A DNA stretch of 64,000 bases from Syntrophobacterales bacterium Delta_02 (lineage in GTDB: Bacteria > Desulfobacterota > Syntrophorhabdia > Syntrophorhabdales > Syntrophorhabdaceae): positions 1 through 64,000 of the forward strand of contig LVAA01000012.1 in the NCBI GenBank assembly GCA_001603955.1. The letters run 5' to 3'. The translations under genes and the position numbers were made by a program. The stretch's first letter is position 1, and each line of letters opens with the position of its first letter. Shown one piece after another: positions 47,044 to 52,822 of this stretch. The notes beneath the pieces are model-generated. The model ran no database searches. It was given only the letters and a program-made list of their open reading frames with translations, and was not told the origin of the DNA.

Positions 47044-49293
47044 TTATGTCAGTCTCTTCCTTACCGCTTCCGCGATGGCCTGGAGGGTGTAGGGTTTCTG
47101 GATGAAATGGGCGTCGTCGAGGGAGGAGAGGTCCTCGTCTCCGCCGTCCTGCCAGTAACCCGAGGCAAAGAGCACTTTTACGCCGGGGTCGATCTTCTTC
47201 ATCTCGCTGTAGACCTGTCGACCCGATCTTCTGGGCATGATCACATCCAGAAGCACCATGTCTATTTCGTCTTTTCGCTCCCGGAAGATCTGCAGCGCCT
47301 CGTCGCCATCCTCCGCGAGGAGGATGCTGTAACCCAGCTCTTTAAGGATGGTTCCGGCGACCTCCCGCATGGCCGCTTCGTCGTCGACGATGAGCACAAT
47401 CCCCTCCCCGCGGGGCGGGCCCTGCTCCGTACCTGCTTCTTTCTCAAGACCTGCGTCTTGCAGGCAGGGAAGAAAGCAGTTGAAGATCGTGCCGACACCG
47501 GGGGAAGAGATGACGTCGATGAAACCTGAATGCAGGCGTATGATGTTGTAGACAACGGCCAATCCCAGTCCTGTCCCCCTTCCCGTGCCCTTCGTCGTGA
47601 AGAAGGGGTCGAATATCTTGGGCAGCATCTCCTCCGGGATCCCCACACCGTTGTCTTCGACGGAAAGGAACCAGTACGGATCGGGACCTGCATCGGGGTG
47701 CCGGGACAGGAATCCTTTGTCCGGCTTGACCTCGTTCAGCGACACCACGATCTTGCCGCCTTCCTCGCCGCCTTTCTCTCTCATTATCGTGAGGGCGTGG
47801 GACGCGTTGATACAGAGATTGAGGACGATCTGCTCTATCTGTACCTGGTCGGCCCATATCATCGCCTTCGTGTCGGGATATCTCGCCTCGAGGATCACTA
47901 CCTTGTCGAAGGTGTTCTCACATATGTGAAGCACGTTCTTCACGACGACATTGAGATCGACGGGGGAGAACGCGGTCTCTCTCCTGCTCGAAAGGGTCAG
48001 GAGCTGCTTGACAACGTCCGCGGCCCTGCTGCTTGCCTTGTCCATGGTCGCCAACATCTCCGAAAGCTCTTCGGCCGGGATGACCGATCCCGATTTCAGC
48101 TTGTACTGGAGGAGGGAAACGTTCCCGATGATGCTCCCGAGGATGTTATTGAAATCATGAGCTATTCCGCTCGCGAGCGTGCCGATGGTCTCCATCTTCT
48201 GTGCCTGCTGCAGAAGGCCCTCCTTCTTTTCGAGCTCCGTCACGTCGTCCATCCTGACGACCACACCGCTGATACCGTCGGCCATGAGGGGATAGATGGA
48301 CACATCCTTGTACCGCGTTTCTTCGCGATCGAACCGGTGGCCGTAGAGATGCACGACTTCATTGGTCTTAATGACCCTCTCTATCGCCTCCTTGAAGCCG
48401 TCGAAGAAATCCGTTGCCCGCCAAAGGTTCTTTCCCAGCGCGTCATCGGATGAGATGTTCGTCGCCACCTCCGTCGCATGATTCCACTGCGTGACCGTTC
48501 CGTTACGGTCGACGGAAACAAGCATGGAAGGCATGGATTCGATGATATTGCCGAGGTAGCCCCTTGTCCTGCGCAGTTCTTCCTCGTTACGCTCTATCTC
48601 GCGGAGCATGTCGGCTATGCTCTCATAAAGTATGCCGATCTCGTCGTTTGACCTCTTCTTCAGTTTGGCCGAATAATCCCTGTCCTTCGTGATGTGCCGC
48701 GATACGTCCGCGAGGGTCAGGACCGGGGATATGAGCATCTTCTTCACGACCACGAAAATGACCACGATCATGGAAAGACCGATGAGTGCAAAGGCTACGG
48801 TCAGGTTGAAGCGCCTGCGAAGGATCTCGGCGTTCACGTAGCGCTCGGTGTAAAAGATCTCGAAAAAGCCCACGATGAACTCACGGTGAAACACGGCATA
48901 GTAGGCCCTTCGGATGTTCTCCGAACCCGCGGGGATGACAAACATGACCGGCGGGGTATTGTCCTCGATGACCTCCATCGTATGAAGGTCCTTTCTCAGG
49001 CTGTCAAGAAATCTTCCTGATTCATCGCGAATATTGACGGCGACGATGTCCCTGTTCGTCAGTACAGCCCGGTTGACATAGGCAATCTCCGTTGTCGCCA
49101 TCTGCCACATTGGAACAGCGTAGGCAAGCCGACCGATGTCCCCCAGGCTTGAAATGGTATCCTCCAGTTCCCCCTTTAACCCCTCCCTGTTCCTCCTGTC
49201 AAAATACAGGATGGACGCCATACTGATCGCGGACACGGCAACGACCAGTATCATTATGAGCTTCGCGAGGATCTTTCTCCTGAATATGTCCAC
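47044..49293 (-). CDS. Hybrid sensor histidine kinase with C-terminal receiver
   Basis: 749 residues. N-terminal transmembrane helix, periplasmic sensor of about 135 residues (residues 30-165), second transmembrane helix (about 170-190), HAMP-like linker, PAS, HisKA ([13 protein letters not shown], the phosphoacceptor H in a DFNN-type hybrid kinase), ATPase domain ([30 protein letters not shown]) and a receiver with [11 protein letters not shown] (Asp). GTG 49293 is preferred since AAGGAAG lies 5-6 bases upstream; the frame stays open to 49347. It follows a periplasmic binding protein gene by 99 bases, which may feed its signal. Confidence 0.9.
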
Positions 49294-49392
49294 GAACGCT
49301 TCCTTTCCCTCAAACGGCCCGGGGGCCGAGTCCCGCACGGGAGTCAATCGGGCCGGTCCTTTTCAATAATCTTCGGCGTATCGCGAGAAAAA

Positions 49393-50211
49393 TCAATTGT
49401 CGGGGGGCGGTTCTTCCTGCCGGGTCAGATCGGAGCGGGAAACGCCGTATTTTCGCAGTATGTCCTTGTACTCCTTCGTGCCCTTGAAGTCTTTGAGATT
49501 CCTGGAAAACTCTACCACCAGCCCGTAGAGATCGTGCCATTTGGAAAAACCCACGTAAAGCCTCTGGCTATGAACGGGAGGACTCAGAAAGCGGATCGAT
49601 CCCGCGACGCCGAGGTCGCCGGCAACACCCCTGATGACCGCCTCGTTCTCGATACCGAGAGAGAACCTGCCACTGACGACCATCTTGATGAGCCGGCTGG
49701 CGTTCGCCACTTCTTCCTTCTTCAGGTAATCCGCGTTGTCAAAGGCCGCCCCATAGCTGAAACCCGCGATGACACCGATGGTATATCCCTTCAGGTCCTT
49801 CAAGGAACCCCCATACCGGATCTGGTTGTCCCTCCTGGTAAAGAGGGAGGTCCGGGAAATACCTATGTGCTCCTTGGGGAATATGGTGTATCGCGCACGT
49901 TCCTTGGTCTTGAGAAGCGATATGAGAACATGCGCCTTGCCCTCTTCAAGCATTTTCAGGCACCGCTTGAAAGGAAATAGCTGGAACACGGCCTCGATGC
50001 CCATCCTCTTCATTACGGCCCTGAAGATCTCTATCTCAAAACCCCTGGCGTCATTGCCTTCCTGATAGGTGTACGGATACCATTCCGTGTACACCACGTT
50101 CAGTCTACCGGGACGGGGGCTTTCGCCGAACACCGCGTTGTTGAAGGAAAGAAACAGGAAGAAAACAATGCACGCATACAAGAATGCCTTCATCATGAAA
50201 ATTTCTACCAT
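49393..50211 (-). CDS. Periplasmic amino-acid-type substrate-binding protein (SBP_bac_3)
   Basis: 272 residues with a signal peptide (cleavage near VFGES) and the SBP_bac_3 pattern: NVVYTEWYPYTYQEGNDARGFEIEIFRAVMKRMGIE, then DLKGYTIGVIAGFSYGAAFD. No permease or ATPase gene is nearby, and the hybrid kinase gene follows on the same strand, so it may act as a sensor partner rather than a transporter component. Start uncertain among ATG 50211, ATG 50196 and ATG 50193. Confidence 0.82.
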   Translation of the reverse strand: MVEIFMMKAFLYACIVFFLFLSFNNAVFGESPRPGRLNVVYTEWYPYTYQEGNDARGFEIEIFRAVMKRMGIEAVFQLFPFKRCLKMLEEGKAHVLISLLKTKERARYTIFPKEHIGISRTSLFTRRDNQIRYGGSLKDLKGYTIGVIAGFSYGAAFDNADYLKKEEVANASRLIKMVVSGRFSLGIENEAVIRGVAGDLGVAGSIRFLSPPVHSQRLYVGFSKWHDLYGLVVEFSRNLKDFKGTKEYKDILRKYGVSRSDLTRQEEPPPDN

Positions 50212-50392
50212 AATTGCCACTCACATTGCCACCCCGCACCCGTCATCCCCGTATCGAGACCCCCCACGGAACAACTCCCTTCTCGATCTGCTTGCCATTT
50301 GCCTCACCTGATATTACAATCTGTGGTGACAAATAGCGCCGGGCGTCCGGAGACGGGGACCGAGGCGCATCAATTAAGGAGTGATAACGAGA

Positions 50393-51433
50393 ATGAAGAA
50401 AAGGTCCGGATCTTTCGTGTACGGAGTGCTCATCGCCATCGTCTTCGTTGCCTCGGGCGCCATCGCCGGGGAAAAGGGATCATCCGAAGACACCCTGAAG
50501 CAATTCTTTGACAGTCAGAAGACACCGGTCGAAACGATCGCGGACAATCCCGCGGCGATGAAGGACTACGTTTCTTCGGCCAAGGACGTCAATGCCCGCT
50601 ATAAGAACGGAAACACCCTGCTCCATTACGCGGCGAACAGGGGATACCTGGACGTGGCCGCCCTGCTCTTGAAGAAAGGGGCTGATATCAATGCCCGGGA
50701 CAAGGACGGAAGGACGCCTCTCCATGAAGCTATGGCATATCGCCGGTACGATGTCGCACGGTTCCTTGTCGAGAATGGCGCCGATATGAGCATGAAAAAC
50801 AAGGATGGCGAGACTCCGCTCATCAGTATCGTATTCATGGATGACAGGAAACTGGCCGTCGACCTCGTCGATTTTTTCATAGAGAAAGGTTTCAACGTCA
50901 GCCGCTCCGCCGATGCAAAGCTCCTCAACGAATCCATCGGAAGGGGTCATCATGACGTCGCCGTCATCCTCCTGGAAAAAGGCGTGGCCTTCGATGACTC
51001 GTCACTTCGCGACGCCGCGGGAATGGGATATGAGGACATCTTTGCCATCCTTCTCTCCCGTGGGGCGGACCCCGGGGACAAGGGTATCCTTCGCGCCGCC
51101 GCTGCCTCCGGGAACGTCGGCATCCTGAAGACCCTGCTGGAAAAAGGGCAGAGACCAACCGCGGACGATGTCGACCTCGCGCTCTACAAGGGAAGGCGGG
51201 ATGCCGCCGTCCTTCTCAACGATGCGCTGAAAAGATCGGGCGGTCAAGAGATCGACCTCACGGCAAGATGCCGGATGAAACCGGACCCCGGACCGTGCAT
51301 GGCTCTCTTCCATGCGGGATACTACAACGGGATAGCGAAGACGTGCCAATCTTTCATATACGGAGGCTGCGGCGGAACGGTTCCTTTCGAATCGGAGGAC
51401 GCGTGCAGAAGGGTGTGTGAGAGCGGAAAATAA
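50393..51433 (+). CDS. Secreted ankyrin-repeat protein with C-terminal Kunitz/BPTI domain
   Basis: 346 residues. Residues 1-26 are a signal peptide. About six ankyrin repeats follow (roughly 60-285), the clearest being NGNTLLHYAANRGYLDVAALLLKKGAD and DGRTPLHEAMAYRRYDVARFLVENGAD. The end is a Kunitz domain: Cys at 293, 302, 318, 326, 338, 342 with inter-Cys gaps of 8, 15, 7, 11 and 3 residues (BPTI 8, 15, 7, 12, 3) and the motifs GPC, YYN and FIYGGC. The P1 position, next to the second Cys, is Met. It should inhibit a chymotrypsin- or elastase-like protease in the periplasm or outside. Kunitz domains are mainly known from animals. ATG 50393 is chosen so that the signal peptide begins MKKRSG; AAGGAG is 11 bases upstream. 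Confidence 0.85.
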   Translation: MKKRSGSFVYGVLIAIVFVASGAIAGEKGSSEDTLKQFFDSQKTPVETIADNPAAMKDYVSSAKDVNARYKNGNTLLHYAANRGYLDVAALLLKKGADINARDKDGRTPLHEAMAYRRYDVARFLVENGADMSMKNKDGETPLISIVFMDDRKLAVDLVDFFIEKGFNVSRSADAKLLNESIGRGHHDVAVILLEKGVAFDDSSLRDAAGMGYEDIFAILLSRGADPGDKGILRAAAASGNVGILKTLLEKGQRPTADDVDLALYKGRRDAAVLLNDALKRSGGQEIDLTARCRMKPDPGPCMALFHAGYYNGIAKTCQSFIYGGCGGTVPFESEDACRRVCESGK

Positions 51434-51475: not shown

Positions 51476-51922
51476 ATGAAGATCGACTTTACGAAGAAAC
51501 AGTTTGAAACGTTGCTGAAGGCCGTATACCTGGGGGCCAGGACGGTCAATGCCTATGAAGATGACCTAGAAGGAAATGAGTACGTTGAACTCCAGAAGTA
51601 TATCTTCGGTTTCGCCAGGGATTTCGGAATCGAGAAATACGCTGACTACGACGAAAAAGAGAAAACGGCCTGGCCCTCCGCCGCTCTTGAAGAAGATGAG
51701 GTCCTGAACGAACTTATCGACCGCTACGACGATTTCACGTTCCTTGACAAGCTCATCTACAATCTTGCGGGACGGGATATGCTCGACAAACACGGAGCCA
51801 AAGCCCTGGAAAAGATGTCCGACGATGAATTCTTCAAGGAGGAAGAGGTCTTCGCCGAGAAATACCGGAAAGAATTCGCAAAGAGCGGGATAAAGAACCT
51901 CACGGTATCCAGAGAGAAATAA
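51476..51922 (+). CDS. Hypothetical acidic cytoplasmic protein
   Basis: 148 residues, no recognised family, no signal peptide or membrane segment. Highly charged and helical; a core of LKAVYLGARTVNAYEDDL with repeated Asp/Glu, and the pattern FTFLDKLIYNLAGRDML suggests a folded helical domain. GAGGAGA lies 4 bases before ATG 51476. It follows the ankyrin-Kunitz gene by 42 bases and may share its transcript. Confidence 0.6.
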   Translation: MKIDFTKKQFETLLKAVYLGARTVNAYEDDLEGNEYVELQKYIFGFARDFGIEKYADYDEKEKTAWPSAALEEDEVLNELIDRYDDFTFLDKLIYNLAGRDMLDKHGAKALEKMSDDEFFKEEEVFAEKYRKEFAKSGIKNLTVSREK

Positions 51923-51932
51923 GGGGCCTGTC

Positions 51933-52181
51933 TTACCTGTATCGGATCGTAAAGAAAATGGTGATGAGCGCGATGATCAGGGCGATACCGTTTGCCGCGA
52001 TGACGGGCGCCGACCTGATGAGAATACCGTAAACCGACCACAGAACGGAACCGATGACGATCATCAGCGGCAGAAGAAGTGAGACGTCCCTGGCCTCTTT
52101 CAATCTCCAGATGCGCAATATCTGCGGCAAGAGCGAAAAGGTCGTGAAACAGGCGGCTACGTAACCGATGATGTCAGCCAT
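51933..52181 (-). CDS. SemiSWEET-type sugar transporter (PQ-loop)
   Basis: 82 residues with three membrane segments and the PQ-loop signature (SLLPQILRIWRLKEARDVS, then GSVLWSVYGILIRSAPVI). SemiSWEETs dimerise to move sugars by facilitated diffusion. ATG 52181 overlaps the stop of the HEPN gene upstream (ATGGCTGA), so it may be translated by coupling, though a functional link is unlikely. Substrate unknown. Confidence 0.88.
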   Translation of the reverse strand: MADIIGYVAACFTTFSLLPQILRIWRLKEARDVSLLLPLMIVIGSVLWSVYGILIRSAPVIAANGIALIIALITIFFTIRYR

Positions 52182-52530
52182 CGCCAATGACTGCTTCCTG
52201 TTGAATGATACTCTCGATCTTCATGCAGAGGAAAGGGACTTTGTTCAGGACCACATCCCACACAATATCATAGTCCACACCGAGATAGTCGTGAACCAGT
52301 CGATCACGCATACCCGCTATCGCTCTCCACTCCAATTCATTGTGTCTTTCCTTCAATTGAGGGGAGACTTTCTTCGATGCCTCTCCGATGATCTCTATAC
52401 TCCTGACAAAAGCGCGCTTGAGAGTCTCGTCCCTCAGAAAATCGTCCCGGCTCAATCCTCTGCTGGAACTAATGAGGTACCGGGCTTCATCGAGAATATG
52501 GCGCAAGTACTCAAGCGACGAGGGCGGCAT
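52174..52530 (-). CDS. hepT: HEPN-family toxin HepT (DUF86), second copy
   Basis: 118 residues, MRDRLVHDYLGVD near 71-83 giving the Rx4HxY active site and AMPylatable Tyr. Only distantly similar to the first module's toxin at 27201-27554, so the two modules were acquired separately rather than duplicated recently. Its start overlaps the partner gene by 20 bases. Confidence 0.9.
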   Translation of the reverse strand: MPPSSLEYLRHILDEARYLISSSRGLSRDDFLRDETLKRAFVRSIEIIGEASKKVSPQLKERHNELEWRAIAGMRDRLVHDYLGVDYDIVWDVVLNKVPFLCMKIESIIQQEAVIGDG

Positions 52531-52822
52531 CCTCGACCTCGTTCAGTATGTGGGCAGCCATGTAAGGGCTAAGCGATTCAACGGTGACAACCTCCACCCG
52601 GCGCCCCAGCGCGTCGTCGAGGTAAAAGGACAATTGTATGAAGTGATCGAATGTTTTCTCTCCCGGTTCAAATTCGACCAGGAGATCGACATCACTGTCC
52701 GGGCGTTGCTGTCCACGAACAAAGGAACCAAAAAGCCCGATTCTCTTGACGCCAAAAGCTCGTAACCTGGCCTGGTTTTGCTGAAGAATGCGGAAAACAT
52801 CCTGCTTCGTCATTCCCTTCAT
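52511..52822 (-). CDS. mntA: MNT-family antitoxin nucleotidyltransferase MntA, second copy
   Basis: 103 residues with GLFGSFVRGQQRPDSDVDLLVEFEPG, the GS and DxD motifs of minimal nucleotidyltransferases. ATG 52822 has GGAG 5 bases before it; ATG 52813 is an alternative. A promoter with operator-like arms lies just upstream. Confidence 0.9.
   Translation of the reverse strand: MKGMTKQDVFRILQQNQARLRAFGVKRIGLFGSFVRGQQRPDSDVDLLVEFEPGEKTFDHFIQLSFYLDDALGRRVEVVTVESLSPYMAAHILNEVEDAALVA

Follow-up and report, generated by a model that had tools for sequence, protein, structure and literature searches.

Judging from their genes, Syntrophorhabdus-group anaerobes, together with a small number of distant relatives, appear to export a protein in which an ankyrin rod is joined to a Kunitz-type domain. 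The gene analysed here lies in the window, a stretch of 64,000 nucleotides from a contig of Syntrophobacterales bacterium Delta_02; it is real, conserved and under selection. Its product probably is a canonical inhibitor of serine proteases that is exported and anchored by the ankyrin rod, a reading to which we assign a probability of about 0.55. The relevant elements of the locus are the following:

50376..50381 (+): AAGGAG, likely ribosome-binding site, 11 bases 5' of the ATG
50393..51433 (+): ankyrin-Kunitz gene, an open reading frame from the ATG at 50393 to a stop codon ending at 51433 (346 aa plus stop; orthologs known)
50393..50467 (+): signal peptide, residues 1-25, hydrophobic and ending AIA/GE according to a by-eye reading of the translation; position kept across congeners
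50549..51241 (+): ankyrin solenoid, about residues 53-283, supported by Pfam, helix pairs of the model, and Foldseek matches to ankyrins and DARPins
51266..51421 (+): Kunitz_BPTI domain, residues 292-343, supported by profile, PDB sequence matches and full-length model
51299..51301 (+): Met303, predicted to be P1 in the binding loop, right after the second Kunitz cysteine
51476..51922 (+): gene of a 148-aa protein, function not assigned, no signal peptide seen; linked by synteny only

The combination of signal peptide, ankyrin repeats and Kunitz domain in one exported bacterial protein had been proposed in an initial annotation, and Pfam, orthologs and model agree on it. Ankyrin families of Pfam match the protein down to an E-value of 3.1e-30. 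Residues 72-137 form two clear repeats, the remainder of the solenoid being degenerate; tandem helix-loop-helix units of about 33 residues, as expected of an ankyrin repeat protein, are indicated by Pfam, model and Foldseek. Legionella ankyrin effectors and MzaA were rejected as relatives: their NCBIfam matches are far below the cut-offs and due to the ankyrin repeats only.

For the C-terminal part, the profile alignment that the initial annotation had suggested gave a full-length match of PF00014 (profile positions 1-53 of 53) to residues 292-343, with an E-value of 3.9e-11 and a score of 43.4 bits versus a curated cut-off of 21. The six Kunitz cysteines reported there were confirmed by counting from the translation (293, 302, 318, 326, 338, 342); all belong to the Kunitz domain, and there is none outside it. 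Their gaps are 8-15-7-11-3, where BPTI and the eleven other animal domains compared have 8-15-7-12-3, and by sequence their positions fit the BPTI disulfides 5-55, 14-38 and 30-51. With the Kunitz/BPTI inhibitors (PF00014, MEROPS I2; TFPI, bikunin, boophilin, SmCI, BPTI) the domain has in common the six-cysteine frame, the GxC-x-[AG] loop, here GPCMA (P4 Gly, P2 Cys, small P1'), and the aromatic-GGC core, here YGGC. In contrast to the animal proteins, it is joined to an ankyrin solenoid, it occurs in a bacterium, and it has 11 rather than 12 residues between Cys4 and Cys5, where VPF replaces the animal N-x-N-x-F, such that the equivalent of BPTI Asn43 is absent. As this asparagine is typical of animals but not needed to exceed the Pfam cut-off, its loss marks a Kunitz variant and does not exclude membership. 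When only the 50-residue domain served as phmmer query, 110 distinct PDB sequences were found at E <= 1e-3, the best chain being SmCI (E 2.5e-18), followed by TFPI, boophilin, bikunin and BPTI, and a profile built from thirteen bacterial Kunitz domains reached 3.2e-38 in the PDB. Given these 110 sequences and no Kunitz match in 14 control genomes, a chance similarity can be dismissed, and the domain is to be classed as Kunitz, in a bacterial variant.

An AlphaFold model of the whole protein, based on a 13-row alignment, has a mean pLDDT of 84.1 and shows a long ankyrin solenoid. In its Kunitz part, two strands (306-312, 317-323) and a helix (335-343) are found where the hairpin and the C-terminal helix of BPTI are expected; the pLDDT of the block is 84-95, and 77 for the last six residues. 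Foldseek, run with the whole model, returned DARPins and ankyrins, and among the matches listed only the ankyrin part was covered. The structure prediction that the initial annotation had called for thus gave the BPTI elements in the full-length model only: modelled alone, the Kunitz domain gave a pLDDT of 54.5, a low confidence, and was kept out of the fold search. The fold is therefore assigned from sequence homology together with the full-length model.

The host assembly comprises 4.03 Mb in 285 contigs and is 98% complete, and its estimated contamination of 5.98% could raise the suspicion of an animal contaminant, a chimeric assembly or a chance open reading frame. Such an artefact is extremely improbable. 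Proteins with 82% identity exist in Syntrophorhabdus sp. PtaB.Bin047, PtaB.Bin184 and Deltaproteobacteria UBA1386, the full-length gene is present in eight of the 12 genomes of the genus (own included), and the flanking genes on both sides are conserved in the closest relatives; the orthologs in the seven other genomes are syntenic, which rules out contamination and chimera. One family member sits in a single-contig genome, the gene has a bacterial structure with ribosome-binding site, and its loop type is common to other bacterial Kunitz domains. Moreover, a dN/dS of 0.14-0.19 for the Kunitz domain, determined from congener pairs with enough changes, indicates purifying selection on this part, which likewise speaks against an artefact. 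In the remaining four genomes of the genus, all at least 92% complete, only generic ankyrin matches were found. A phage or plasmid origin was also considered and rejected, as there was no match in 50,697 phage and 72,556 plasmid records and none was confirmed among viral contigs.

The search for orthologs proposed in the initial annotation yielded 11 further full-length members in genomes of the phylum. Outside the family of the host, G072 (the single-contig genome), G267 and G827 belong to one family and G269 to a third; these four proteins are 38-48% identical and can be aligned through the ankyrin-Kunitz junction. All six cysteines are retained in each of the 12 members, which cover three families of the phylum. 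When the degenerate ankyrin region alone (residues 144-285) was compared with 395 genomes of the phylum, exactly four strong matches resulted (E 1e-59 to 1e-66), each in a protein that also has a Kunitz domain, and the next match was at 5e-13. Among the 395 genomes, this region did not occur without a Kunitz domain; an ankyrin-only ancestor was sought there and none was found. In a tree of 38 Kunitz domains, the nine sampled ankyrin-fused ones cluster with support values of 91/73 for all columns and of 99/99 without the Cys4-Cys5 loop, the bootstrap of the latter being not fully settled. Because the ankyrin region is never found without Kunitz and the Kunitz domains of the family group together, one old fusion would be the simplest reading of these sequences. 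The patchy distribution then means later losses or transfers. The initial annotation knew of no ankyrin-Kunitz fusion in bacteria; we likewise found no description of such a protein among open-access papers, and the fusion, which joins two known domains, appears to be undescribed in the literature searched.

Kunitz inhibitors had also been called essentially an animal protein class. This view has to be qualified: Kunitz domains were found in 9 of 395 genomes sampled from this phylum and in 6 of 395 from Bacteroidota, i.e. in roughly 2% of the sampled genomes of two bacterial phyla, and Kunitz domains of an Acinetobacter baumannii protein have been shown to act as inhibitors of serine proteases (PMC11511053). 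The bacterial architectures include six tandem domains (L035, from a Saprospiraceae genome of the phylum Bacteroidota), small exported single-domain proteins (L030, L034, G560) and a DUF2330-like part plus Kunitz (G175, G400, G867). These proteins have the VPF-type loop in common with the ankyrin-Kunitz family, whereas their partner domains are other ones or missing; the Kunitz domains of L030, L034 and L035 are 42-50% identical to the one studied here. Exported DUF2330-like proteins with a Kunitz domain were also noted at L055, L054 and L086, and in G175 an ankyrin reading frame and the Kunitz domain are some 1.4 kb apart.

Nearly all bacterial Kunitz domains compared carry the VPF loop, in contrast to the animal ones. 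A proline-phenylalanine loop is present in 26 of 26 tabulated bacterial domains, and the gap between Cys4 and Cys5 has 11 residues in 23 of them, 12 in one and 10 in two; a weak Bacteroidota match, L063, is without the proline loop. All 12 animal domains compared have a 12-residue gap and an asparagine at the position of BPTI Asn43. With the loop included, the bacterial rows of the 38-domain tree form one side of a branch (98/87). Without the loop they do not, although the AU test does not reject one bacterial clade (p-AU 0.383). It is the loop columns that set the bacterial domains as a whole apart from the animal ones. A recent gain from animals is unsupported, as the ankyrin-fused Kunitz domains cluster with those of other bacterial proteins.

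In the binding loop, P4 Gly and Ala or Gly at P1' occur in all 12 members. The methionine that the initial annotation had named as P1 is indeed residue 303, but it is a derived state: P1 is Met in five members forming a subclade (G000, G001, G004, G005, G010) and Lys in the seven others (G006, G007, G011, G072, G267, G827, G269), among them the nearest outgroups, which argues for an ancestral lysine. Within the genus, P3 and P4' also vary, whereas P2' Leu and P3' Phe are constant. A fixed P4 and P1' next to a variable P1, P3 and P4' would be the pattern expected of a canonical inhibitor. Domain 1 of animal bikunin has P1 Met, too. In the A. baumannii protein, assayed in 2024, coagulation factors Xa and XIa are inhibited by the P1 Arg domains, elastase by those with P1 Leu (PMC11511053). 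Based on this dependence and on the bikunin case, the replacement of Lys by Met in the subclade predicts that its targets have changed from trypsin-like proteases to chymotrypsin- or elastase-like ones. The six domains of the exported Saprospiraceae protein (L035:4911-6050) have K, E, K, E, K and R at P1.

Exported ankyrin proteins are known from bacteria: Pseudomonas AnkB possesses a signal peptide and ankyrin repeats, but is not known to have a Kunitz domain. Conversely, the five-Kunitz protein of A. baumannii F6W77 is likewise an exported bacterial Kunitz protein, a likeness taken from its description and not from an alignment, but it consists of tandem Kunitz domains without an ankyrin part and stems from a host-associated organism (PMC11511053).

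In each of the other seven Syntrophorhabdus genomes with the ankyrin-Kunitz gene, the 148-aa gene comes directly after it, in the same orientation; the 148-aa product has no match in Pfam or NCBIfam. Directly downstream of the ankyrin-Kunitz gene in the related genomes G267 and G827 is a gene for a secreted protein that contains a DPSCCP motif; a protein with this motif is also encoded next to the ankyrin-Kunitz gene in G269 and about 2.6 kb downstream of it in G072. No such motif was seen in the window, nor in the Syntrophorhabdus loci retrieved. In a comparison of nine sequences, the G267 neighbour showed 29% identity (E 5e-15) between its C-terminal part and a C-terminal extension of the G269 ankyrin-Kunitz protein. 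Parts of both proteins are hence fused in the G269 lineage, which suggests a joint action. Secreted proteins with this motif were located beside or near ankyrin-Kunitz genes at L096:5495-7492 (-), L095:6775-7434 (-) and L094:3744-5366 (-), the one of L096 having the C-terminal part that is homologous to the G269 extension.

Several other genes surround the locus. An 84-aa SemiSWEET sugar transporter (51933-52187, -) is above its NCBIfam cut-off. A HepT-like (52174-52530) and an MntA-like reading frame (52511-52822), together 52174-52822 (-), are likely a type VII toxin-antitoxin pair; they are conserved in congeners, and both matches are slightly below the NCBIfam cut-offs. On the other side (47044-50220, -), a family 3 solute-binding protein (49393-50220) is followed by a large sensor-kinase-like reading frame (47044-49347), and four congeners have this pair next to the Kunitz gene as well.

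In the mechanism that we propose, the N-terminal signal would export the protein, after which the Kunitz domain would form three disulfides and block a serine protease of the trypsin fold (S1) by the standard mechanism, with the Met303 loop lying substrate-like in the active site. The ankyrin rod would serve as a tether for the inhibitor, binding a partner that is either extracellular or part of the envelope. The protease blocked might be a periplasmic serine protease of the cell itself or one released by proteolytic neighbours or predators in sludge. Inhibition is suggested by the full-length profile match, the cysteines kept in 12 members, the dN/dS values, the constant loop frame, the modelled hairpin and helix, the P1 Met of bikunin, the inhibition measured in A. 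baumannii (PMC11511053), and an ankyrin region never seen without Kunitz in 395 genomes. Arguing against it are the failure to find DsbB or VKOR in the genome, the tendency of obligate anaerobes to keep cysteine out of exported proteins (PMC12453122), the poor model of the isolated domain, the loss of Asn43 in a shorter loop, and the fact that no recognisable protease gene stands beside the ankyrin-Kunitz gene in the loci read.

The main rival to the inhibitor is a disulfide-stabilised binding module that is no longer inhibitory, with both halves of the protein serving contacts with envelope proteins. Among animal Kunitz domains there are some whose partners are channels or other proteins, not proteases. 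Examples from cestodes and snakes are given in PMC11511053. Other bacterial Kunitz domains have P1 residues such as Glu and Asn, and the secreted neighbour of G267 and G827, partly fused in G269, suggests a complex. However, the GxC-x-[AG] frame occurs in every ankyrin-Kunitz member and P1 is only Lys or Met, both compatible with inhibition; we regard the loss of inhibitory function as less likely than inhibition. More doubtful still is a reading in which the envelope, being anaerobic, leaves the cysteines reduced and available for metal or redox chemistry, the domain being Kunitz by descent only. It draws on the obligately anaerobic habit, as deduced from the genus, and on the fact that neither VKOR (PF07884) nor DsbB (PF02600) was found in the 98%-complete genome, while control genomes gave the expected matches. 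Yet residues of the inhibitor loop and core other than cysteine are conserved as well, and some anaerobes fold disulfide proteins via DsbA-like enzymes without a regenerating partner (PMC12453122).

Taking the inhibitor reading one step further, we tentatively envisage a VPF-loop Kunitz lineage long native to bacteria, whose ankyrin-fused branch, together with the secreted neighbour, might provide exported protease control in strict anaerobes without DsbB or VKOR; we consider this broader picture possible rather than probable. A six-cysteine exported domain in an anaerobe in which neither of these enzymes was found poses the question of how disulfides are formed. Animal Kunitz inhibitors are very well studied and their bacterial relatives nearly unstudied, and the ankyrin-Kunitz protein of free-living anaerobes offers a testable case for the use of this domain without an animal host. 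It also bears on whether the fold moved between bacteria and animals once or repeatedly.
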